From Cyathus striatus (Eukaryota; Basidiomycota; Agaricomycetes; Agaricales; Nidulariaceae), in the NCBI GenBank assembly GCA_025738555.1, contig JAOVFP010000001.1:1302001-1366000 (forward strand): a stretch of DNA of 64,000 nucleotides. Direction: 5' to 3'. Below are positions 4,600 through 59,387 of this stretch, piece by piece. Within the stretch, counting starts at the first letter, position 1. Each line of letters starts with the position of its first letter. The notes under the pieces were generated by a model. That model saw only the letters and a program-made list of their open reading frames with translations. It was not told where the DNA came from and made no database searches. The position numbers and the translations under genes were made by a program.

Positions 4600-5460
4600 C
4601 CGGTCAACCAGCCAGGTCCCTGTCGCATCCCTCTCGAGTCTCTCAAATATCGTGGTAACTTCAAGTGTTCTCATGGGGACCAAGACCTGTCTAGTCAAGA
4701 ACGTGAGAGTCGTGAGAAGATAGTTTGCGTGCACAGAAGAGGTATTGGGCTGGAAATGATCCTTTCGGTCCGCGTTGACATGGAGTGTGCGTGTTGGCCT
4801 GTTTTTTGTGCATGGGTTGACTATATGCGCATAGACAAAGTACCGCTGTGCTTCATCCCAGTACCCCGAGAACGTATGCTGACACCTCTAGTCCTTCTGA
4901 GGGGTATAGCGCTCATCAAGAACAGGGCCGTGGAGTGCCGCAGCACGATTTCATTCCTCACGGTTATATGTCGCAAGATGATTATCCTCCCCCTCCTTCG
5001 CCTCTGGCGCTTGATAGGATCTTTGGGCGTACAGTACGACCACTCGGTGAAAAGTTGGAAGGATTGCAGTATGGAGGAGTGGTTCGCTGAAGGTATGTTT
5101 ATCCGTATTTTTGAGACATTACAAAGAGTAATGATGTTATCATATTATCGGCAGCGGGCACAAACTATCTTTAGTGGTACTTTCAGATTTTTATACTTCA
5201 TTTCTCCTTACTTAACCATGTTCTCATATGTCCTCTTTCTTTTTACAGCCCATATATTACTGTAACACATAGGTGGCCATTGTCGACACTATAGTCAGGA
5301 CTACTAGTCTCGAAAAAACCATTGAATATCACCAACAGGTATAGGCATCATTTCGTCATCACTCTTACTCTGATGATTTCCGTTAGCCTCTTCGAGATTC
5401 CCTAGCCACCTCTTCCTTGGAGTCTGAAGACGAGCCTAATTCAATGGCTGTACTCGCGTA
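4600..5460 (+). pseudogene. Remains of an unidentified spliced gene
   Basis: I do not recognise this gene. Three stretches look coding by composition and splice sites. At about 4848-5087 a Pro/Ser/acidic segment (reading YPPPPSPLALDRIFGRTVRP and then a helical GEKLEGLQ) ends in a stop just before a good donor GTATGT at 5092. After an acceptor near 5271 the frame reads VAIVDTIVRTTSLEKTIEYH to a donor at about 5338 (GTATAG), and after an acceptor near 5387 it reads PLRDSLATSSLESEDEPNS and a stop TAA near 5460. The last two exons join in phase. The first does not join cleanly, so either the gene is broken or an exon is missing. A short coiled coil is likely around the EKTIEYH part. No function is proposed. 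Confidence 0.3.
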
Positions 5461-5947
5461 AATTCATGGGCAAGGGATATGATGGAGGTGCTGGAAGGCG
5501 GAGGGAAGTGGAGTGAGATATAGGGTGATAGGAGCGAGAAGAAGGGGGGGGATTTGTGGCAGAGTGGAAGCAGGAGGGGAGCAAGCTATGGGCTAGTAGG
5601 ATTGGGGATTATACCACCCGAGCTATTTTTGTAGATTCCGGATAGATCTGTAATTAGCAGAGAATTTAATGAATATATTGTTATTGCATGTCAGAGACAA
5701 CCGGACCACACCTGTTTTCTATCCGGAAAAGAGATCAAAATCAAGAAAAAATCCGAAATTTACAGAACGTCAGATGCGTCTGTAATTTCCGGATGTTGCC
5801 GGACCAGGCCTGCGCGACTTTTGACTGGGATCGTTCAACATTCAGATCTTATTGTGTATACGAGAGTTGTGGCGAGCTTTTCCGCACAAGTATTGCAGTG
5901 ACCATAGTGAGAGTTGAACGTTGAAGCTTTGGTTACATTAATGCAGT
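5461..5947. other. Region without a supported gene
   Basis: A purine-rich stretch (5461-5600) followed by AT-rich sequence with several copies of TCCGGA/TTCCGG (5635-5810). No frame with family resemblance or splice support. Confidence 0.45.
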
Positions 5948-44500: not shown

Positions 44501-44660
44501 GACATTATTCAAAGCCAATGACTTTATTCGGTTGATTGACAACCTGCACAACACTGCTTGGAACCATTGGTGCTCTGAAGTGTAGAGCAGGCATTCTGCC
44601 TGTACCGTAAAATTGGCCTCATGTCTGTTTTTAATAGTTCACTCATTTACATTGTTCTGT

Positions 44661-46240
44661 CAGTCTCCTTCCCAGACCCTATAGGAAGTCTCAATCAAGC
44701 AGTACACAGTTTTTAATCCAAGTTCGTGGGGTAAGAAGAGAAATATACAAGTCATTATAATCAACCAATCATATCATTTGAATTGATCAATTCTCTTTTT
44801 GGAAATGGGTACTTTGAACTTTAATTTGATGAAACTTCCTATAGGGTCTGGCACATAATATATACAAATAGGAGGGTCAAGCTAACCGCTGCAGAGGCCA
44901 TGAAGTACTGAGTTTGAATTGACCTCTATGGTTTTCGATAACATCATGGTGATGATAATCTTGCATCAATTAGTAAAGAGATCAATAACTTGTGATGTGC
45001 AACAAATTTGTATGTAGTCTTTACTGTGGCAATGGTTTCATATTATAGACCTAACAGTTGAAATACTGTCTGACATGTACTTACCAACTTTGCCTGGGCC
45101 CAGAACGAATTTTTGAGTATAGAGATGAAGGATAGACACTAGGAGCAAAGTATACACAGTATGAACAAAGTGGGGACAGTTGGATGAAGAAGAGGGGTCC
45201 AGATCGAAATTTTAAGCATAGAAACAAAGCATAGGCAGTAGAAACAAAGTCAAGATAGTCTAGATGAATCAGAGGGTCAATAATGAAGTTGTGAGCTAAG
45301 GAACAAGGCATAGATTGTGGAAATGAAGCAGAGCCAGTAAGAACACAGAAGAGAGGTCAATAGCAACATAGTGAGCTTAGGGCCAAAGAAAAACAGTAAG
45401 AACAAAGCAGTCACAGCAGAAACCAAGCAGTGATAGTGAGAGCAAAGCACAGGAGTAAAAAACAACATAGCAAGGTTAGGAATGATGTATACACAGTAAG
45501 AACAAAGCAGACACAGTTTAGAAACATATAAAACACAGTAGGAACAAAGCAGACACATCAGGAATGAAGCTGAGGGGTCAAGAACAGAGAACTGAGCTTA
45601 GGAGCGAATCAGAGAGAATAAGAATGAGTTGAGGGCCCTTTCATGGCTATCAATTTGAAAGTCATATGCCTCTCCAATGTGTAGTTTTGTTGATCCACAG
45701 CTGAGAAACCTTTACAACCAATATGAGATCATATATGCACAATGGCCTTGAATTTCGACCTGTGAGCTCAACATCTTTTGAATAAGTATGTTTCCAGAAA
45801 ATTGAAATAACATTGTGATCACGTTTGAGAACCACTTGCAGCTTTTGCAGGCTGAATTGCACCACATTGATTTGCCAGTTTTTCAAGGACACAGTGTAAG
45901 TATACCAAATGTGTTGAATATTTTGCTTAAGTTTTGCTTTGAATATATTTCATCTCTGAGCACTGAGCACTGAGCATTTACTTTCATACTCAGAATGATG
46001 TCAGCGAGCTGGCCATCAAGGTGGCTGTGGTGTTTGTATATATTATGTGCCAGACCCTATAGGAAGTTTCATCAAATTAAAGTTCAAAGTACCCATTTCC
46101 AAAAATAGAATTGATCAATTCAAACAATATGATTGGTTGATTATAATGACTTGTACATTTCTCTTCTTACCCAATGAACTTGGATTAAAAAGTGTGTACT
46201 GCTTGATCGAGACTTCCTATAGGGTCTGGGAAGGAGACTG
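44661..46240 (-). mobile_element. Internally deleted copy of the RecQ/DUF6589 element (1580 bp)
   Basis: Inverted repeats of about 208 bp: 44661-44868 and 46034-46240, beginning CAGTCTCCTTCCCAGACCC. Flanked by a perfect 9-bp duplication TTGTTCTGT (44652-44660 and 46241-46249). Sequence just inside each end matches the inside of the 5.8-kb element at 52108-57912, but in reverse orientation: 45970-46033 matches 52316-52380 and 44869-44920 matches 57640-57702. A relic of the helicase exon is kept. Most of the middle is unrelated AT-rich DNA with AGCA.AGAACAAAG-type repeats at 45110-45610. Confidence 0.9.
45690..45895 (-). pseudogene. Relic of the RecQ helicase first exon
   Basis: The minus strand reads WQINVVQFSLQKLQVVLKRD then HNVISI, matching the start of the helicase in the long element (LWQISVVQVILKHDHNVISI). 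The Walker A part that should follow is lost. This ties the helicase gene to the element rather than to the host. Confidence 0.7.
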
Positions 46241-46272
46241 TTGTTCTGTACCTATTTAAGTACAGTACTTTA

Positions 46273-46489
46273 TGACAGAAACCAGGGGCTGAACTTATAG
46301 GTGAACATGGATGATGGAGAAAGGATCTGAGTATTATTTGTTGATATGAGTATTTGTAGTTTATGTGTATATTACAAAGTCATAAACTATACAGTACCCT
46401 AATATATCTATTGTATATGTGTATTGCTCCATGGCTTGTTTGTCTATGGCTTTGATTCCTAAATATATTATATAATTGGAATCCCAACA
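46273..46489 (-). repeat. 3' LTR of copia element
   Basis: 217 bp. Compared with the other LTR: A versus G near 46313, TG versus CA near 46347, and TG versus CA near 46478. Confidence 0.93.
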
Positions 46490-46594
46490 CTCCCCCTCAA
46501 GCCTAGGGAGCATTGTTTTATGTGCAGGTGCATCAAAACCTATCCACCTTAAAACACTGTGGGAAAAAACAGGTGGGTAGGAAAGCTACTGACA

Positions 46595-49500
46595 TTAATA
46601 AGTATTTGTGACTCCTAGCTCATCTCTATGTTTTACAAATTTGTCTCTCTTCAATGGCTTGGTAAATATATCTGCAGTTTGCTCAGGGTCTCGACAGGAA
46701 TGAACTTTAATATCACCTCTTTCAACACATTCATGAACAAAATGCCAGCGAAGATCAATATGTTTTGTATGTTTGTGAAACTTTGGCTCATTATTTGCTA
46801 ATGCAGTAGATCCATCATTATTACCATACAAGACTGTTGATTTTTGCTGAGGAAATCCAAGTTCATGGTAAAGATTCCTTAGCCATTTTGCTTCACGTGA
46901 AGATTCTGAGAGGGCTATATATTCAGCTTCAGTAGTTGAACTTGCCACCAGAGTTTGCTTCTTTGATGCCCAAGTAATGGCACCACCACCACAGCTTAAA
47001 TAAGTGTAATCAGTGACTGACTTTAAGTCATAACTGTTGGCATGTGAAGAGTCAGAATATCTAATAAATGTGTTTTGTGTATTAGATTTATTATCTGGGA
47101 CTCCATATGTAATGCCATAGTCTCTGGTGCCAGCTAAGTAGCGCAAAAGGTGCTTTGCAGCACTCCAATGCTCCATGCTGGGATTAGCAGTAAACTGAGC
47201 CAGAGTATTAACTGTGAAGGCAATATCTGGATGTGTAGCAACAGCTAGAAACTGAACTGAGCCAACTAGAGAGGCATAATAATTGCTTCTATTTGGCTCA
47301 TGGTATTCAGGATTAGGCACAAGTCAAACATTTGGCTCCATTGGTGTTTTTACTGGGTTGGCATTTTCCATACCAAAACATTTAAGTACAGTTTCAGTAT
47401 ACTGAGTTTGTTTCAAGGTAATAGATTTATCCTTTTGTACAATTTCAATGCCAATCACTTTTCTTGGTACACCTAAATCTGTAATTTCAAATGGCAGAGA
47501 AGTCAATATTTTCACAAGTTCATCCATTAAGGAGTCAGAACTTGCAAAATTTATAATGTCATCTACCCATATGGTAATGACTTGTGAACCACCACTATTT
47601 TGACGAATATATACACAGGGATCAGACCTTATGTACTTGAACCCTTTAGTGCACAATTCTTTATTAATAGCAGCATTCCAAGCTTGTTTTAAACCATATA
47701 GACACTTTTTAAGTAAACAAACTTGTTTTGTGCCATTGGAAAAACCATCTGGTTGACACATATATATAACTTCATCAAGGTCAGCATTCAAGTATGCACC
47801 TTTGAAGTCCATTTGTCTCATTTTTAGACCAAATATAGGAACTAAGGCAAATATAGCTCTTATGGTTTCTAGACATACAACAGGAGAATATGTTTCATTG
47901 AAGTCTTGGCCTGGTCTTTGGGAAAAACCCTTTGCCACAAGATGTGCTTTATGCTTGTCAAGTGCTCCCAAGTCATCAAATTTCTTTGTTAAGACCCATT
48001 TGTTTCCAATAGGGACTTTACCTTGTGGGAGATCAACCAGTGTCCAAGTACCTTTATTTTTAAGCTGTTCCATCTCCTTTTGAACAGCTTTTTCCCATTG
48101 TGGCCATTCCTTTGAGTGTTTTGCCTCAGCTAAATTCTTTGGCTCTTCACTTTCTTTATTATCAGTGAAGAACATATAGATGATTTCAGCCATTGACAAT
48201 TTTATGTCAATTTGGCTATTACTTTCATCTTCTATTTCATCCAGGAATGCAAGTCTACTGTAATCAATTTCACCTTCAGCAAGGCGTTTATAATCAATAG
48301 CTCACTTTAGGCATTTGCCTCTTCCTGAATTTTCTAAGTCTGAATCCTCAATGGAATCCAAACCATCTAATCATTTTCATTTTGTATTGGTGTGTCCACC
48401 ATTGATATCATTAATGCATCCATCAATGCTATCATTATCATTGGTAATCCATGGGTCATTGCCTTCTTTGGATTCCATTCTATTCCCAGAGGACTCCCCC
48501 TCACACTGTTGCCCATCTGGGTTAACTTGTGTGTTAGTGGGAATATCTTGGGTTAGAAAACGATAATTACGTGAAGCTAATACCTGTCGAGAATTATAGT
48601 ACTTGACAGCTTTTCTGCCATCATCAAAACCAACAAAGATATGTTTAGTTGACCTGGGCTCGAGTTTTGATAACTCATTTTTCCCTTGGTTCAATATCCA
48701 TACTGGTGTACCAAATTCCCTAAAGTGCTTCACATCTGGTTTTTTATTATACATTGCCTCATAGGGTGTTTTTCCCTTCAAAGCTTTGGTATATGAACGG
48801 TTTCGAATGTAAGCTGCATGTGTAGTAGCCTCTTCCCATAAATATTTAGGAAGATCTTTGGCAATTAACATAGTATGTGCCAGCTCAACTATAGTCTGAT
48901 TATTCCGTTCTACCACTCCATTCTGGGATGGAGAATAAGGAGATGTAGTCTGAAGATCAATGCCTTCAGACTCAAACCAATTTTTAAGAGCAGGATTTAC
49001 ATATTCCTGCCCACTATCTGCACGAACACTTTTTGGAATGAGACCATGGACTCGTAGATGAACAATGTGATTTTTAATTTTTTCTGTGACATTGGGTTTA
49101 GATTTAATAAAATATATGGTGATAAAGCGAGTGAAGTCATCTGTTAAAGCAATATAATACTGATTTTTGTGTATGGACGTCATTGGAGATTCCTACAAAT
49201 CAGTATGAGTGAGCTCTCCTGGAGCTTTAGCTTGGTATCCAGACTTTCTAGGAAATGGTTTTATGAACTGTTTCCCTTCAATACAAGATTGACAGTCTGG
49301 AGTAGGTGAGTTTAAGTCAACATTTAGTCCAGTGACAAGGTTATCCCAAAGTAGCTGGCGAAGACCTGTATATCCAATGTGTCCATAATGCCTATGCCAC
49401 TCTTCCCAGGATGCCACCATTCTAGCTGGTTGACTCACTTCACAGAGAGCATCAGTATTGAGTTTATATAAATTGGAAGATAATTTTTCTCCTTCCATAA

Positions 49501-50986
49501 CAATTTTATTATCCTGATTTATTAACTGGATAATTCCATTGCAAATATAGATGCTTCTTCCATTATTATCCCATTTTCCAAGTGATAATATATTATCTCC
49601 ATTGTCAGGAACATAGAGAACATCAGTCAAAGTGATCACATAATTGGTCCCTTTGATTGATGAATTTATTTTTACTGTTCCACAGCCTTTAGACTTTATT
49701 TTTATATCTCCTACACCCTTGATATTTGTATCATAAGGCTCAAAGTCATCAAAAGCAGACCGATCATTACAAATATGACAAGAAGAGCATGTATCACCCA
49801 GCCAATAATAAGCAACACACTCATATTCATCATTACCAACATACACAGTTTGATACACATAACCATTATCATCTACATCATTATTATAATTATTATCCCC
49901 CTCCAAATCTCCATTCACATTTGACTGAGTAGATATCTCAATCACTTCAATGGCATCAGAGCTTCTATCAGATAAAAGATTGGTAGAGGGATTGTCAGAA
50001 GAAACATGTAGTACCTTCTGTTTTTTAGCTGGAGGCTCAGTAGAGTCATCCTGCTTTGATGAGCTAGCCCTTTTCTTGCACTTTGCAGTGCCAGGCTTAT
50101 GCCCAAATTGTTGACAGTCTGAACATCTACTCTTCCCTAGGAACCAGCACTTCTCTGTTTTGTGACCAGGCATATTGCAATGACCACAACAAAGAAGAGG
50201 CTTGTCCAAGTTGGAAGATTGTTCAGGCTTGTCTGTTTCACTGATACGATCAGCAAGAGTGCATTTCTTTGAGGACTTATGTGATGCCACATAGGCCTTC
50301 TCATCTGCCTTGGACTGTTTATGAGCATTAAATTCATGCTTAATATGTCCAATGAGAATACCAGATGGCATAAAGTGCCCCTTTTTATCTTTGCAATCTA
50401 GTGTCTTCCTTGCAAATGATCCCCATGTATCAAAGGGAAGGGAAGAACAAATAAAGAATGCAAAGATATGATCCTCCATATAGAAGTACTTGTCCTGCAT
50501 AGTTTTCAGATCATCATAATGCCACTTCATCTCATCAAGATGTTTTGGAATGTTATCTCCATCAACAGCACGCATTGATGAAATTCTTCGGAACTTAAGG
50601 CTAGCAAGATGATCTCCTTAAGGCATAAAGTTTGCCTCTAAGTTATCCCACATAGAATGAGTGGTCTTCTCATTAACAGTTGATGCAAATGTTGGTTCAT
50701 CAAGACCACTATGAATGATAATTCGAGCCAGCTGATCTCCATCCTTCCAATGCTTCTGAACTATTGCATATTCATCCTTCTCCTTCTGAGTAACATCTAA
50801 AGGAGTCTCAGGATATACCAAAGTCCCATCTACAATATTGGTAACGTCACAAAGGAATAGTTTCTCTTTCATAGCAACACTCCAGGTAGCCCAATTTGTT
50901 GTAGTAAGTCAAATAGGATGGGGATCAGGTGTATAACTCTTTATCTCCTTCTTAAAAGAAGGAATCTGTGGAGGAGGCACAGCCAT
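46595..50986 (-). pseudogene. copia gag-pol polyprotein with nonsense codons
   Basis: Starts ATG at 50986 (MAVPPPQIPSFKKEIKSYTP). gag has a CCHC knuckle (CGHCNMPGHKTEKC, near 50190). The protease site reads WLGDTCSSCHIC, one residue off the usual D-T/S-G. A pre-integrase HRHYGHIG block is at about 49400. Integrase (49183-48380) has ALTDDFTRF, SVRADSGQEY and SQNGVVERNNQ. RT (48199-47330) has GNKWVLTKKFD, QMDFKGAYLNADLDEVIYM, KCLYGLKQAWNA and IWVDDIINFA. RNase H (47320-46598) has HANSYDLKS, STTEAEYIALSES and the ADIFTKPLKRDKF end. The same frame is cut by stops near 50920, 50618, 49193, 48377, 48303 and 47324; several are TGA where Arg is expected, and TAG where Trp is expected. Confidence 0.88.
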
Positions 50987-51513
50987 TTGAAGAATATATA
51001 TAAATAATGAATATTTGGAGTTATTCTCCTGATTGGTTACAGGTAACACCAAAAATATATAAATAAAACTTTGGTGTTAGTCTCCTGTTTGGTTACAGGT
51101 AATGCCAAAGCTATATAAGATCTAGGCACTTGATGTTATGCTCCTGATATAATACAGGAGTCACCAAGTATAGCCTAAATCTAAGTGAACTGTTGGGAAT
51201 CCCAGACAAAACACTATAGATAGACCAGTATACCCAGGGCCTGAGGTGGTAGATAGTGCTGAGGAGTCACCAGAGCACTGATAAAAGGTCTAAAAGGGTG
51301 TTGAAAGGGAAAGGAGTAATGATTTGGGCAAGTAAAAGAAGTAGGACTTATCAATAGTAAAGCCCAATGCCCTATTCCCAACAGATGACATGTTCTCCTA
51401 CAAGAAATAGCCTGTAGCTCGAAGATTTTGATAAAAGAGGATGGTGTTAGAGCAAAGCAGATAGAAGAGCACAGTGTATCTTGAAGAAGTGTGAGCCTGG
51501 GGCCCATAACCTT

Positions 51514-51730
51514 TGACAGAAACCAGGGGCTGAACTTATAGGTGAACATGGATGGTGGAGAAAGGATCTGAGTATTATTTGTTGATACAAGTATTTGTAG
51601 TTTATGTGTATATTACAAAGTCATAAACTATACAGTACCCTAATATATCTATTGTATATGTGTATTGCTCCATGGCTTGTTTGTCTATGGCTTTGATTCC
51701 TAAATATATTATATAATCAGAATCCCAACA
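51514..51730 (-). repeat. 5' LTR of copia element
   Basis: 217 bp, TG..CA ends on the minus strand. Five transitions against the other LTR. Confidence 0.93.
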
Positions 51731-51735
51731 CTTTA

Positions 51736-52107
51736 CTCTCGTTGAATAACAGGTTCCTTTCCCCCCCTTCTCACATTCTCAACGAACCTCACTAGGACCT
51801 GAGGATAGACGGACATGCTATCTGCTCGCAAGTTCTTTGTTCAAGAACTTCCTTCAACCAGAAATCTTCTTCCACAGAAGTCTGTAGTAGTAGCACGTCT
51901 CAATCTTTATATGTGCTAGTTCCTTCTCCACTGTTATTTCATGAAGGTTGAATGAGCGACCCTGAGGACTCTGGTAGTAGTACTGTCTGGTACACGAATA
52001 TTTAGAGTATGAACAACCCTGTGGAAAAGATGTCGGGACTCAGAGAAACTGACGATTACGTGTTGGTGGCGTAGTACAGTAATACAGTAGTAGTACTACT
52101 AGTACAT
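51736..52107. other. Spacer between copia and the RecQ/DUF6589 element
   Basis: No coding evidence. Ends in a GTA-rich stretch (CAGTAGTAGTACTACTAGTACAT) that abuts the element. Confidence 0.4.
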
Positions 52108-52487
52108 CAGTCTCCTTCCCAGACCCTATAGGATGTCTCGATCGAGCGGTACACAGTTTTTAATCCAAGTTCGTGGGGTAAGAAGAGAAATATATAAGTC
52201 ATTATAATCAACCAATCATATCGTTTGAATTGATCAATTCTCTTTTTGGAAATGGGTACTTTGAACTTTAATTCGATGAGACATCCTATAGGGTCTGGCA
52301 CATAATATATACAAACACCACAGCCACCTTGATGGCCAGCTCGCCGACATCATTCTGAGTATGAAAGCAGATGCTCAGGGACGAAAAAGTATTCAGGGAT
52401 ACTTTTCATTGACAGGTGGGCAAGTCGCGTCGATGCACGTCGATTTCATTGCAATGTGAAAGACCTCACCACGTTCGGGACCACCAT

Positions 52488-54968
52488 ATGTCAACAATCC
52501 CTTCTGTTGCCGACATTCAAAGTAAAACATTATCTTCATTCGGTATACGCCTATGTCTCTGGCAAATCAGTGTGGTTCAAGTGATTCTCAAACACGATCA
52601 CAATGTAATTTCAATTGCTGGAACAGGCCTTGGGAAGACTTTGTCATTCTGGATGCCGCTCATATTTCGCCCAGAAGACAACATACTTATCATTATTACA
52701 CCTCTCAACATTCTGGGGAAGCAACATGTGGAGTCGCTGAGTAAAGCAGGAAAGAAGGGTATATTCATTGGGAGAGACACAGCTACAGCTGCAAATTTCC
52801 GGGTAAGTATACATCAACACATGCAGTAAAGGATACTTATCATATCTTAGGCTATCGAAAATTTTGAATACCAAGTAATTGTCGTTAGCCCAGAACAGTT
52901 AGCCAAAAGCAAAGGAGGATTTGAGCGACTGTTCCAGAATCAGAACTTCACGAGTCACATTATCTGTATCGTTGTCGACGAAGCGCACTGTGTCTACATA
53001 TGGAGTGCTTTCAGGCCAGAATACAACGAGCTCGGACGTCTTCGAGATATCTTACCAAAGGAAATACCAATCTTGGTAACATCTGCAACACTTCCAAAAC
53101 ATATCCTGAACGAAGTCCGTGATATCCTAAGAATTTGTACCACCAATCTTGCTTTTTTTCGACAGTCCACTCAATGTTCCAACATTTTTTTGGGTATTCA
53201 AAAGATATTGAGCCCACTGTCAAAATTCGAGGACTTGAAGTTCGTTCTGAACAACTGGAAAGTTGGAGATCCACCACCGCCGAAATTCCTTGTTTTTTTC
53301 GATGACATAAACAAGTCCATCGCCGCTCGGGAGTACCTATGCTCGCAAATTCCGCCTACATATCATGAAAAGATAATATGGTTTAACGCTGATATGTCAG
53401 ATGACTTCAAGGAGGACGAAGCACAGGGTTTACTGACTGGGCACACTTGGGGAATGTGTACTACCGATTCATTTGGGATGGTCAGTGACACTATTCAATA
53501 ACTAAATCCATTATCAGCTTACTCAATTTGTGCTCAGGGAATGGACTTACCAGATATTGGGCTGGTGGTTCAGTGGCGTGCAACATGCTCGCTGACAATG
53601 CTTTGGCAACGATTAGGAAGAGCAGCTCGCAATAGAATGCTGACAGCGAAAGCAATATTCCTTGTGGAAAAGGAATATTTTGATGATGAACACAAGCGTA
53701 AGGCTGAAAAACGAAAGGCTGTGAGCGAAGCGAAGCGTAAAAAAAACCCACTTACGGAAATTCGACTCAACCAAACCAACCAGCCCCTAATCCCGGATGC
53801 TGAATCAAGCACGGCCACAATACCACGTGCTCTAGAGGTGTCGGATAGCGAGGATGGGGAGGATAATGAAGGTTTTGAGGACAAGGAAGCTGAAGTACAT
53901 GAGGGACTAACATCGGAACTTCATGAGAAGTATATAACAGCATCTATATCATCAACAAAAGGCATGAAGTCAAGAAGAAAGAAGGTTGATTTAGAAGAAG
54001 CAATGGATGATCTCATAAATGCACACACACGCAACATCCCATGCCAGAAAATGCCCATAGAAGCGACATTTGGGGGATGTGAAATCAGTAAGTTTCTCAG
54101 TGTCATTACTCAATTTCTTGTTCTATTCTTATGAATGTGGGTACGAAGCGCCTAGTCCACATGATTGTAACACTTCTCAACCATCTGGCTGCCAACGCTG
54201 TCTTGAGACACCTCCCACCATCTGCTGCAACATCCATACCCCATCAGAGTTCACTTCATTCTTTGTCCCTGCAATAAAGCCTGTGCGACCGCTTCCGTGC
54301 ATGAGTATACCGAAGAAGAGCATGCCTCGTGAATTAACTCAAGACGATAGAAAGCTGCGACAAGAACTTGAGTACTGGCGTAAAAACCAAAACAATTGAA
54401 GTATTCGGATGTTCAATTCTTGTGGATATGGGCCCAAGCTTGGTGATGCCAAGTGAAGTATTGGATCGCATTGTTGAATGTGTACACCTGAAAGTTATCA
54501 GGAATGTTGACCAGCTTATTCGTGAAACATGCTGGGCTGATGCTAGAGAGTATGGCGAGTCGATCATAGCTGTTATTCGAACTGCAAGACCAGACATCTT
54601 TTCTATTGTGGAACAAGCCCCCCCCTTAACATCTACTCCTTTACCTCAACCTCTACAATTAGCTGTGCCAAATTCACGAGTGGATACTACAGCCAAGCGT
54701 TCCAATACCTGGAAATGTAGTCGTTGTGGAGAGCATGGTCATACTTGTGAGTGGCTGGAATAACTGTCAATACATATTGTTTATAATCATATCTTTATCT
54801 ACAGCACATTCATCAAAGTGTTCTCAGGCACCTCGTAATACAGCAGCGACAGCTATTGTACGCACATCTTCAAGCTTGAAAGAGAATACAGTAGCTACAG
54901 GATCATTGACAGTGTCTGGGCGGCACATTACTAATTCATCACTTCAATTTGTTCATTACAATCCATGA
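52488..54968 (+). pseudogene. RecQ-type DEAH helicase with C-terminal zinc knuckle
   Basis: Superfamily 2 DNA helicase. Exons 52488-52802, 52851-53480 and from 53538; the first two introns (GTAAGT..TTAG, GTCAGT..TCAG) keep phase 0. Walker A is AGTGLGKTLSFWMP, motif II IVVDEAHCVYIWSAFRPEYN (the RecQ loop), motif III TSATLP, and motifs V-VI GMDLPDIGLVVQW and WQRLGRAARN. A basic linker (KRKAEKRKAVSEAKRKK) and acidic region follow. Then a Cys-rich part (HDCNTSQPSGCQRCLE, CCNIHTPSEF), and at the end a CCHC knuckle (KCSRCGEHGHT, completed after an intron at 54749-54805) and stop at 54966. The ATG at 52488 matches the family start MSTIPSVADI; a longer frame from 52416 begins with GTG. A frameshift near 54380 (in an AAAACC/AAAAC run) and an unclear acceptor near 54135 make it probably inactive or misread. 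Confidence 0.75.
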
Positions 54969-54978
54969 TTATAACTAC

Positions 54979-57562
54979 CTAATCCAATAGCTCACCAATA
55001 ACATCGGTCTCATTTACCATGTCCTCCGGTTCATCATCTTCAGCTTCCCCTCCGTTAGGATCTGCATTGGTAGCTATATTCGCTTTCAAAAGTGTGTTTA
55101 TTCCTTTTTCGATTGGATCTGGTATACAGTATTTGCTTTTGCATCCTAACACCATCCGATGTGGTTTATGAAGCTCAAGGTGTTTACGCAATGCATCGAA
55201 CGTCTTTGTCATGTCTGGGTCAGTATGTGCTGATGTGAAGTGACTAAGTGCGAAATTTTGCTCGATTGATGTACGTATGCTTCGGTATGCCTCAACAAGT
55301 GGCGACTCCTTAATTATGCGATCCACTGTGTAGTTGGAACTCGATCCGCCATATTCTACTTTGGTGAAAAGATTATTGAGTTTGACACACCAATCCACTG
55401 CCCTGAATTTTCCAGGCTTTCCTGTTGGGTTGATAAGAATATTATAATGGATTGCTTTCTTCAGTCCTTCTGGGAAGACAACATGTGTCTGGTAAAGAAA
55501 ATCTATCATATGTTTTGCATATTTATGCTTCCCTGTTGCTCGAAAAATGAAGATCCAGGGTATTAAACATAGCTCAACTCGTCCTATATCACCTTGGTTC
55601 ATGGCATATGAAATTTCTTCATACAGCAAAGCACATTTATTGAATAGCAATGCATTCTCCCTTTGCATATCTCTTCATAATTTACTTGGTTCTCGGCATT
55701 CTTCTTGGAAGTTTTCACCAGCAACATATTTCACAGCAAGATCATCAGCAAGTAATTGAAGGCTTTCAAAACTTGGCTTCGATGCCACAAATATATCAAG
55801 ACTAGTATGAGCTGGATTTTGATTTGCAACCTCAGTTCGAAAACAGTCAAGTCGTCGGCAGATCCCAGAGTGTTTTATAACTTGATGCATCTTTCGGAAT
55901 CCTGGTTTTGAAGCAAATATACCAGTTTGCTTTGGTCTCAAAATTCTAATATCACCCATTAAAGATGTATCATCTTCATATGAGTTCATAGCAGGCAAAA
56001 TGAAGTTTCATTGAAAGGTTTCAGCACATGCCATTTTGATGTGAAAAAATCCTGGGTTAAAAACTACAAACTCGAACTGGTTGTATGGTGTCTTCTCTAT
56101 TGATCGACGAAGTCGAATAGATAAGATACGATCTCCTGTTCCAAGATCTCCATGGAACAGCACAATATATAAATTGTCATTGTGGATTTCATACTGAAAC
56201 TCCTCCACTTTGCTAGGCTCCATGGGAGAAACTCCACCTTGCTCCATTAGATCCAGAATAGTGCTAATGTTGCCTGAGACAGTTGAGTTACTAAATTCCA
56301 TAGAGCGAGCTGGTAAAATAGGAGTCTTTGTATGAGGAATCATATCTACACCTTCTGGTGGAACAATCTTGTTGAGAAATTGTGAAAAGTACACCAGACC
56401 ATGTGTGCAGAGATCAGTCAGAAATATTGATGAATTGAATTTCTGACGACGCGAGAGCTGGCCTGGTAGAATTGGATCAGGGTGTGCTTTAGTTATACAT
56501 TGTACAACATTCTTCCAATTTCCCACCGGTGGAATATCAGCTGGATTGGCATGTGGATTCAAACGACATTTTTTCCAGAGCTCCTTGGAGCATTTCATAT
56601 CTTCTTTTGTAACACCATGCTGAAGTGGAAAGACAAGAGCTGATGTTAAATGTTTGAGAGTTGTTGTGGACTTCTCAACAGTTGGAACAGATGTTTTTAA
56701 ATCAACATCGAAATTATCATATGCATAAGCAACAAGGTGTGTTTGACCCATCTTGCACAGTGTATCTGCAGATTCCATTGACAGTGATGCAATAGCAGCA
56801 TGTATCGTATTGAGTGAAATTGATATACCGAGGCGTACTAATGCCTCAATAACTTTCTCTGGTGTCTTACATGCGTGCAGAAATATTCCTATGATAGTTT
56901 CAAGTGCATTTGTTTGCTGGTTGGAGCTCTGCATGATAATGCTGAGAATTGTAACTTTTTTCTGCAGAACTATAAGTGTAATACAGTGACATAGTGAAAA
57001 ATCAACATACAATTGTAATCACTGCAACTCATCGAGACTCGTTTCTATTTTCTGGTGCTGATTTTCCTTCTGTTGTTATGAACTCTATCATTCCTTCAAG
57101 ATCCATATCTGCCCAGATCCCTTCGTCATCTTTAAACATAACTGGACCATCCTTTATAGCCTGACCACCTGCAGAGAGCAAGTGGTCCAAGAGATTCCAC
57201 AATCTCGAAGCTTCATTTGCAAATCTTTTTGCCATCTTATCGATGCGGAACTCATGAATTTGTTGAGCTCGCAATCGTGTAGCGCCAAGTTTCCATTCAT
57301 CTCGGTTGAGAATTAAGGACTTCACTTCACTCTGCAGGTCTTTAAGTACCATTGGAAACAACCAGCTGATATCGATTGGTTTTGTTGTTGATTTGATCAA
57401 AGTAGAGATCAAAGTGCTCGCACAGGCTCGTAGATCCAAGGTATCATTTTCAAGAATTGGATCAGACAAAAGAAATAAAACAAAAGTGGAAACCTTGACT
57501 TTGTTCACCACAAATGCATTCACAATGTCCTTGTAGGCTTTGTTGTCCATCGTGGTCGTCAT
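54979..57562 (-). pseudogene. DUF6589-like gene with three in-frame TGA codons
   Basis: Large basidiomycete protein family of unknown function; here it is the second gene of the element. N-terminal exon 57562-about 57010 (MTTTMDNKAYKDIVNAFVVN), a short intron (GTATGT..TGCAG) and one long frame to 54979. Recognisable blocks are AYAYDNFDVDLKTSVPTVEK, TKEDMKCSKELWKKCRLNP, LRPKQTGIFASKPGFRKMHQ, SGICRRLDCFRTE, YAMNQGDIGRVELCLIPWIF, FRATGKHKYAKHMIDFLYQT and NPTGKPGKFRAVDWCVKLNN. TGA codons interrupt at 57029, 56008 and 55675, but the frame is the same on both sides each time. The C-terminus is acidic. Conserved Asp/Glu/His residues in the core would be worth testing as a nuclease or transposase site; that is speculation. 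Confidence 0.75.
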
Positions 57563-57912
57563 TGCGAGTTATTGATCTCTTTAATCGATGCGACATGATG
57601 CTGTTGAAAACCCTTGATGCGGTACCATCATCTATTTTTGGAAATGGGTCAATTCAAACTCAGAACTTCACGGCGTGTGCGGCGGTCAGCTCAACCCTCC
57701 TATTTGTATATATTATGTGCCAGACCCTATAGGATGTCTCACTGAATTAAAGTTCAAAGGTACCCATTTCCAAAAAGAGAACGATCAAATAAAGTGATAT
57801 GATTGGTCAATCAAAACTACTTATGAATTTCCCAAATAACTCATGAACTCGGAATAAAAATTGTGTACCGCTCTAGGATCGAGACATCCTATAGGGTCTG
57901 GGAAGGAGACTG

Positions 57913-59387
57913 GAAGTATATTGGAATTGGCGTCTCTCGTTAAACAACGAAGGTCCTTTGCAATTGACTTTGGTCGATCAAGGTACAGCTTCTTCAAGTT
58001 CGGTAGCTGTACCGATTTCCACCCTTCGCCAAGCTGAGCCTTGGTCAGAGTAAGATTCTCCAGTGAACAGGAGCGCTTAAGAAACTGTAAAATTGCAGGC
58101 GAGCTGAATTCCAAGTCCAGACAATGTAATTCCTTCAAATTTGGGGCCGATATAACATTTAGCACATCCATGCTTATTTCATCCCGCCAATTGCGACGGT
58201 CCTCGAAATTCAAAATGTGCAGCTGGGGAACTACAATACATCGCGATATTCCCGTCATGCCATAAAGTGTGAACGATGTGAGGTTTGTCATAGATTTAAG
58301 TATAGCAGAAAGTTCATCTTGTCCAAATTCGCAGTCGTCGCAATTGAAATGAGTGATTTGAGACCAAGGGAATTCTATGAATATCGTTTTGGGATGATAC
58401 AGTCCCTTAATGCTTAAGTGAAATAGCGATGGGGCCGAGTTCAAAGAGATCGTGAATTTCGTCATAAATTCCTGAGGATCATCCTCGTTTTCCACGATTA
58501 CGTGCGTTAGCACTGGAGTCGACCGAAGAGAAACATCGCCGGCCGAGTCGGAAATCCATAAAGATGTCAAACGAGAATATACTACATCTGGAGAGTTTTG
58601 AGCTGAAATAGCTTGAATTGTCTTCTTGTAATTGTCGATTTTAACTTCTTTCCAGCGATGTACAGAATTGGCTACAGCTTTTATGAAGCGATCTCCGAGG
58701 AATTTTGGAGAACCATATATCTTTAAATACAGTGGGACTTCGCCTGAAAGCGTAATGAACCTTTCAAAAAATGATTCGTACCCTGCCGACTGTTTCTTCT
58801 TTCTGTGGTAACCCAAATTGATCCGAGACCATAGTCTAGGGAAGGAAAAGGCTACGGAGCGCCAATAGGCACAAACTTGCATCACCGTTTGAACAAATCC
58901 TTTAGCGTAGGATACGGTTATGAATCCGTCAAGTCCAGAGTCATCCCGGCGAACCAAGAATATGTGTTGAAGGACTTCTTCAGGCAGCCTTCGGATTGGC
59001 GCAAATAGACTTTTCTGTTGTACATTAAATACTTTCAGAGCATTACTTCGATTTTTGAGAGACCTGATGACTTTCATGAGGCGATCAATCTCTTTATCTA
59101 ACTGTAATATTTGCGATCCAGCGTGATCGATATCCGATAGTGTGGATATACGCTGAGATCCATACGGAATAATATTGTGTCGGTGAAATACCGAGGGTCC
59201 TTTTAGATCAGCGAGCAAAAACTTGGGTCCGCTGTTGCTGCCACAAGAGTCGCATATCTCATGTGGAGCGCTATCATCCCAGGATTATTAGAGATCAGAA
59301 GAGAGTTTAAGGCAAGTACAGTGATATCACATACATTTGGAGTTTTGGAGCGCTGGCCTTTCGAACGGAAGCGGTAGAGTTGCTCAT
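57913..59387 (-). pseudogene. F-box / leucine-rich-type protein 3, C-terminus cut off by the element
   Basis: Same family as F-box genes 1 and 2. Exon 1 59387-59335 (MSNSTASVRKASAPKLQ) and exon 2 from 59270, intron 64 nt (GTATGT..ATAG), same splice phase as the sisters. The order is conserved: CxxC (EICDSCGSNSGPKF), coiled coil (ILQLDKEIDRLMKVIRSLKN), F-box core (PIRRLPEEVLQHIFLVRR), then Leu-rich repeats. The host reading frame stops being homologous at 57913, where the element begins; translation would run on into the inverted repeat and end at 57821 after about 30 foreign residues. Relative to gene 1 about 150 C-terminal residues are missing and are not found beyond the other side of the element. 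Confidence 0.75.

Follow-up and report, generated by a model that had tools for sequence, protein, structure and literature searches.

The 64,000-nucleotide window analysed here, positions 1,302,001 to 1,366,000 of contig JAOVFP010000001.1 of Cyathus striatus (host genome of 107 Mb in 24 contigs), contains a 5,805-bp mobile element at 52108..57912 (strand not applicable), in which a RecQ-like helicase gene and a convergent gene of the DUF6589 family (Pfam PF20231) lie between long terminal inverted repeats (TIRs). The element is most probably an autonomous but decayed AcademH-type DNA transposon (class II), encoding a DUF6589 DDE transposase together with a co-inherited RecQ-like helicase. An initial annotation of this DNA had placed a unit with these two genes at the same coordinates, which proved correct; its further statement that no named superfamily has this pair does not stand, as AcademH (as described in PMC10045372) and Academ copies with recQ_fam (in the relevant part of PMC6416283) had been named already. 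The element type itself was described in 2020, and what is new here is the link of PF20231 to AcademH-type elements and the occurrence of 79 convergent pairs of the two genes in a single genome.

The left TIR (52108..52365, + strand, about 258 bp) starts CAGTCTCC, its outer 208 bp being the block that recurs in other copies, and the right TIR (57653..57912, - strand) spans about 260 bp. Both inverted ends begin CAGTCTCCTTCCCAGACCCTATAGG and are identical over the outer 36 bp, with identity falling to 79% over about 260 bp. The 208-bp inverted repeats reported by the initial annotation are real as inverted ends; over that length, however, the two ends of the large unit agree at just 85%, and identities of 94-96% belong to comparisons that involve a smaller copy, namely between its own two ends and between it and the left end of the large copy. 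Within the left TIR, a 27-bp motif is found as an outer copy (52119..52145, +) and an inner inverted copy (52273..52298, -), and this pair plausibly represents candidate transposase binding sites.

The smaller copy in the window is a non-autonomous relative of 1,580 bp (44661..46240) made up of both ends, the leader to element position 271, part of a helicase exon and a repeat-containing filler. As had been claimed, it shares both ends with the large unit and is flanked by a perfect 9-bp target site duplication, TTGTTCTGT, at 44652..44660 and 46241..46249 (both +). The piece of the first helicase exon that it was said to carry is real but short, amounting to about 47 bp at 87% identity (45792-45838 against 52578-52623) beside the leader.

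Copies with the same ends are found throughout the genome. With up to three mismatches (<=3), the 25-bp end has 68 forward and 65 reverse matches, and the same pattern read backwards has 0 and 0, so the recurrence of the ends is not due to chance. Stretches were fetched around 20 TIR matches and around five DUF6589-helicase pairs (L053 among the latter), and the end of the window element was searched in these 25 loci (L033-L057) and in the window. The 21 loci L033-L053 matched; L054-L057 have diverged ends with no match to it and were examined separately. After L035 and L043 were left out of the pairing, each having a single outer end within the fetched stretch, 21 paired units were available, 19 from these loci and two from the window. 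Listing such copies with their 9-bp duplications had been proposed in the initial annotation, and in this genome the duplication is perfect, and of varied sequence, in 17/21 units, whereas chance would give a perfect 9-bp match in about 4 of every million units (4^-9). The remaining flanks agree at 8/9 positions in L048 and L051, 6/9 in the large copy of the window and 5/9 in L036.

For the large copy, the flanks concerned are 52099..52107 and 57913..57921 (both +), and a duplication there is degraded or absent, so the window copy by itself is no proof that the full unit transposed. The earlier suggestion that the helicase gene is carried along with the unit is borne out by L053, a complete 5,831-bp relative elsewhere in the genome, which has window-type ends, both genes and the perfect duplication GGACAAATC; it carries a 577-aa DUF6589 open frame, and its helicase is 80-83% identical to that of the window. 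Furthermore, L052 is a deletion derivative in which element positions 1-1303 are joined to 5400-5805 at about 87-90% identity, with a perfect duplication, and in L044-L051 pieces of the helicase region persist together with pieces of the right end. Two non-autonomous copies, L034 and L038, have a truncated end and, next to it, an additional internal fragment of terminal repeat covering element positions about 149-208 or 149-271, which suggests nested insertion or rearrangement. The right terminal repeat of L047 (874-3425) is interrupted by about 0.9 kb of other sequence, apparently through a later insertion into that end.

The convergent arrangement of the two genes was observed genome-wide. 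A search of the genome with PF20231 gave at least 105 matches, or 93 loci once merged, and the same family had no match in 14 control genomes. A helicase match was found within 10 kb at 79/93 DUF6589 loci, with a convergent one at 79/79 and a median distance of about 3 kb, whereas random placement paired 2.7 loci on average and 8 at most, in a rough control whose positions were drawn from the initial 2.2 Mb of these contigs. An earlier count, which used only loci similar to the DUF6589 protein of the window (n=40) and not the Pfam family (n=93), had found a helicase at <=10 kb in 28/40; the nearest one is convergent in 27, and the 28th has a convergent one farther away. The other 14 of the 93 DUF6589 loci lack a related helicase match at <=10 kb and may be helicase-free elements, fragments or domesticated genes; one of them, C9:3046294-3047286, has a 753-aa open frame. 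Of 121 helicase matches, 40 are more than 10 kb from any DUF6589 match, and at least 13 of that group lie inside the deletion derivatives L044-L052.

Seven diverged pairs (L054-L060), whose two proteins are each 33-43% identical to those of the window copy, have inverted ends in 7/7, starting CAGGCTCC or CAGACTCC, and perfect 9-bp duplications in 5/7; L059 agrees at 8/9 positions and L056 has none. In total, inverted ends of 123-260 bp were present in 9/9 elements examined, and perfect duplications in 6/9 of the pairs whose borders were examined. The initial annotation had held that the two genes lying side by side outside such repeats would speak against a mobile unit, and no pair of that kind occurs among these nine. 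The identity matrices of both proteins correlate over the nine elements (Mantel rho 0.82; 14/20,000 permutations as high), which indicates that the DUF6589 and helicase genes travelled together. The ratio of nonsynonymous to synonymous substitution rates (dN/dS) is 0.07-0.23 for both genes in four element pairs, a rough sign of constraint given that dS > 1 in 8/8 comparisons. On contig C18, two DUF6589-helicase pairs (2905618-2909758 and 2958797-2962938) are separated by about 50 kb, point in opposite directions and have equal similarity-search scores; their PF20231 scores differ (237.8 vs 275.5 bits), and they may reflect recent inverted duplication or transposition.

The helicase gene (52413..54965, +), with a possible first exon from about 52363, encodes a superfamily 2 (SF2) helicase and has putative introns at 52803-52850 and 53481-53537 (+), with borders read from the sequence. 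Pfam scans covered 18 open frames, taken from the window element and from four relatives; in the exons of this gene they identified PF00270 (DEAD; E 7.8e-10 and 1.7e-9) and PF00271 (Helicase_C; E 6.7e-6). The C-terminal part has a zinc-knuckle-like CSRCGEHGH. Among PDB entries, the corresponding exon of L053 is closest to RecQ1, RecQ5, WRN and BLM, and the helicase is therefore described as RecQ-like. A PIP-box-like SIQGYF at its possible start was discarded, not being found in L053, L054, L055 or L057.

The DUF6589 gene (54982..57568, -), a predicted DDE transposase gene, was recognised from open frames that match PF20231 (E 2.5e-46, 5.3e-10 and 4.8e-22), a family labelled as of 'unknown function' in Pfam. 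In the scanned frames nothing other than the helicase domains and DUF6589 was above the cut-offs. A PDB sequence search with DUF6589 returned nothing at E <= 10, and a fold search was used for this reason. The structure prediction, which the initial annotation had also proposed, has an RNase-H core with a helical insertion domain, as in Hermes, P element and RAG1, and its nearest solved structures are the hAT (Hermes) and P element transposases, at about 8-11% identity in structural alignments. Elements of both groups make 8-bp duplications and are not known to carry a helicase. No Academ, Kolobok or Mutator-like element (MULE) structure is present in the fold listing, which is therefore not evidence against those groups. 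From the predicted fold, the pairing with the helicase, and the ends and duplications, DUF6589 is likely the recombinase or transposase of the element, the role for which it had been put forward as a candidate; it would then carry out catalysis through putative acidic active-site residues, which in the relative P0009 would be D280 or D283, D464 and E721.

Homologues of DUF6589 numbered at least 739 in one search; 120 of them were listed, and those with a name come from mushroom-type fungi. A joined query for DUF6589-helicase fusion proteins found none among 55 matches listed from a capped set of 7,994 candidates, a result of little weight, as convergent genes are not expected to give a read-through fusion; in viral contigs, 44 pattern matches included no relative. 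Public gene models join DUF6589 to DNA ligase (P0121), F-box-like (P0122) and PF26138 (P0043) domains, which could be artefacts of gene prediction or genuine fusions.

As a working mechanism, DUF6589 would act as a transposase of DDE type and RNase-H fold, equipped with a helical insertion domain, that recognises and binds the long TIRs beginning CAG[T/G/A]CTCC, cuts, and then inserts the ends at target positions staggered by 9 bp, from which the 9-bp duplications would arise. The convergent RecQ-like helicase would be a constant second component, inherited along with the transposase, and most likely aids the unwinding or processing of DNA near excision or integration, or the subsequent repair, although its own step in transposition is put forward here by inference. 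Since the ends and duplications match a DDE reaction, a helper role is considered more likely for it than that of driving a rolling mode.

AcademH (Kojima 2020, Mob DNA 11:15) is the Academ lineage that encodes a helicase and makes 9- or 10-bp duplications, and AcademX, of the same superfamily, makes 3- or 4-bp duplications and has a nuclease instead, a difference in length that seems tied to helicase versus nuclease (as outlined in PMC10045372). Members of AcademH are described as low-copy elements of Basidiomycota, Ascomycota and Mucoromycota (PMC10799480). According to the section of PMC6416283 on fungal Academ copies, 81% (1,568/1,938) have recognizable protein domains, for example PF00270 DEAD/DEAH helicase and recQ_fam, and such copies are frequently given as host genes in annotations; they share the helicase domains with the present element, and that passage does not mention DUF6589, ends or duplications. 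Putative non-autonomous Academ elements are reported to be widespread in the mushroom Marasmius oreades (PMC8290104), and the 5.8 kb of the window element is near the mean of 5,565 bp given for curated mollusc Academ elements (PMC10294476).

The present element resembles AcademH as a class II element with a helicase, 9-bp duplications and a basidiomycete host. PF00270/PF00271 exons lie beside the transposase gene within the element, as a separate convergent gene, in a comparison that knows AcademH from the descriptions in PMC10045372 and PMC10799480. Duplications of 9 bp are perfect in 17/21 same-end units and 5/7 diverged pairs, with the full-length window copy at 6/9, and a DDD/E transposase of RNase-H fold is present by prediction. 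Terminal inverted repeats are defining for AcademH and bound all nine elements examined. With every testable feature in agreement, the element is very likely AcademH. Unlike AcademX, it has 9-bp duplications and a helicase, and no nuclease domain was above the cut-off in the 18 open frames. The assignment rests on published descriptions (helicase, duplication length, fungal hosts), the ends and the predicted fold rather than on a sequence alignment of the transposases, and by analogy we infer that the element would belong to Academ in sequence also.

Several points weigh against this assignment. The 6/9 flanks do so if the window copy is taken alone, and AcademH is reported as low-copy in fungi (in the account of PMC10799480), in contrast to the 93 DUF6589 loci here. 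Likeness to the Academ transposase is a matter of description and not of sequence alignment, and among solved structures the predicted fold is nearest to hAT and P element. A search of 5.39 million papers for the word 'DUF6589' found none, with most subscription journals outside its coverage, and passages of PMC12210899, PMC12730594, PMC9674265 and PMC4522978 bear neither on DUF6589 nor on its pairing with a helicase. Apart from the flanks and these four papers, the points above would suit a separate, undescribed DDE superfamily that is AcademH-like only in its helicase and 9-bp duplications. However, gene content, duplication length and fungal occurrence agree with the published AcademH and Academ descriptions as far as these were available, and a listing without any Academ structure makes the closest solved fold say little, so this alternative is improbable. 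A broader form of it, with PF20231 as its own DDE superfamily of cut-and-paste transposases that co-evolve with a RecQ-like helicase and depend on this partner, the two convergent genes being kept together at 79 loci here and probably throughout Agaricomycetes, is offered as an outside chance.

Other known systems fit less well. Kolobok inserts with 4-bp TTAA duplications, whereas those found here are 9 bp and varied in 17/21 units, which largely refutes a KolobokH element and leaves it very unlikely. The resemblance is one of gene content, KolobokH being a DDD/E transposase with a RecQ helicase known only from fungi, and one rhodophyte Kolobok even has RecQ on the complementary strand, but the KolobokH helicase lies downstream of the transposase domain and not in a separate convergent gene (as presented in PMC9587614). 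Capture of a helicase by a Mutator-like element is similarly hard to credit, since no MULE transposase domain was found at E <= 1 in the 18 open frames and the helicase is a constant partner at 79/93 loci, not an occasional capture. What favours it are TIRs of 123-260 bp with a 9-bp duplication, which are MULE-like features. Helitrons are not known to have TIRs or target duplications, whereas the long inverted ends and fixed 9-bp duplications here are of the kind that a DDE enzyme gives, the scanned frames have no Rep/HUH domain above the cut-offs, and DUF6589 resembles a DDE enzyme in its predicted fold. As such, the idea in the initial annotation that the helicase itself drives a Helitron-like rolling-circle or replicative mode with DUF6589 as an accessory, which the presence of a RecQ-like helicase had invited, is unsupported and scarcely probable. 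Two neighbouring host genes bracketed by unrelated insertions of miniature inverted-repeat transposable elements (MITEs), a notion prompted by the abundance of short copies with the same ends, are refuted by the same pair in the same orientation at 79/93 loci and by inverted ends at 9/9 examined borders, 6/9 with perfect duplications.

The AcademH-type reading gives a likely function to a Pfam family of 'unknown function'. Where a fungal annotation lists a DUF6589 gene, that gene probably encodes a transposase, and a RecQ-like gene convergent with it probably encodes a transposon helicase and does not belong to host repair. The elements are also abundant enough to offer a concrete setting for studying the reason that a DDE transposase retains a helicase, and whether this partner sets the 9-bp stagger.

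The window copy itself is in decay. Relative to L053, its DUF6589 gene has in-frame TGA codons at 55675-55677 and 56008-56010, with a third (57029-57031) adjoining an exon border. At the position of E721, the likely catalytic Glu of most relatives, the gene encodes Lys, as does that of L060. The helicase frame shifts near 54383-54390 relative to L053. Together with the degraded duplication, these sequence changes point to an old, inactive copy.

An F-box-like open frame (57821-59284, -) extends into the element, with its last ~30 residues (SFPDPIG...) encoded by the right TIR, and the C-terminus of that gene may thus have been exchanged or cut short when the element inserted. Between the small and large copies sits a Copia-type long terminal repeat (LTR) retrotransposon (46273-51732) with 219-bp LTRs of 98% identity, which begins 32 bp past the small copy and stops 375 bp short of the large one; its RVT_2, integrase-type and gag-pre-integrase domains each lie in their own - strand open frame.
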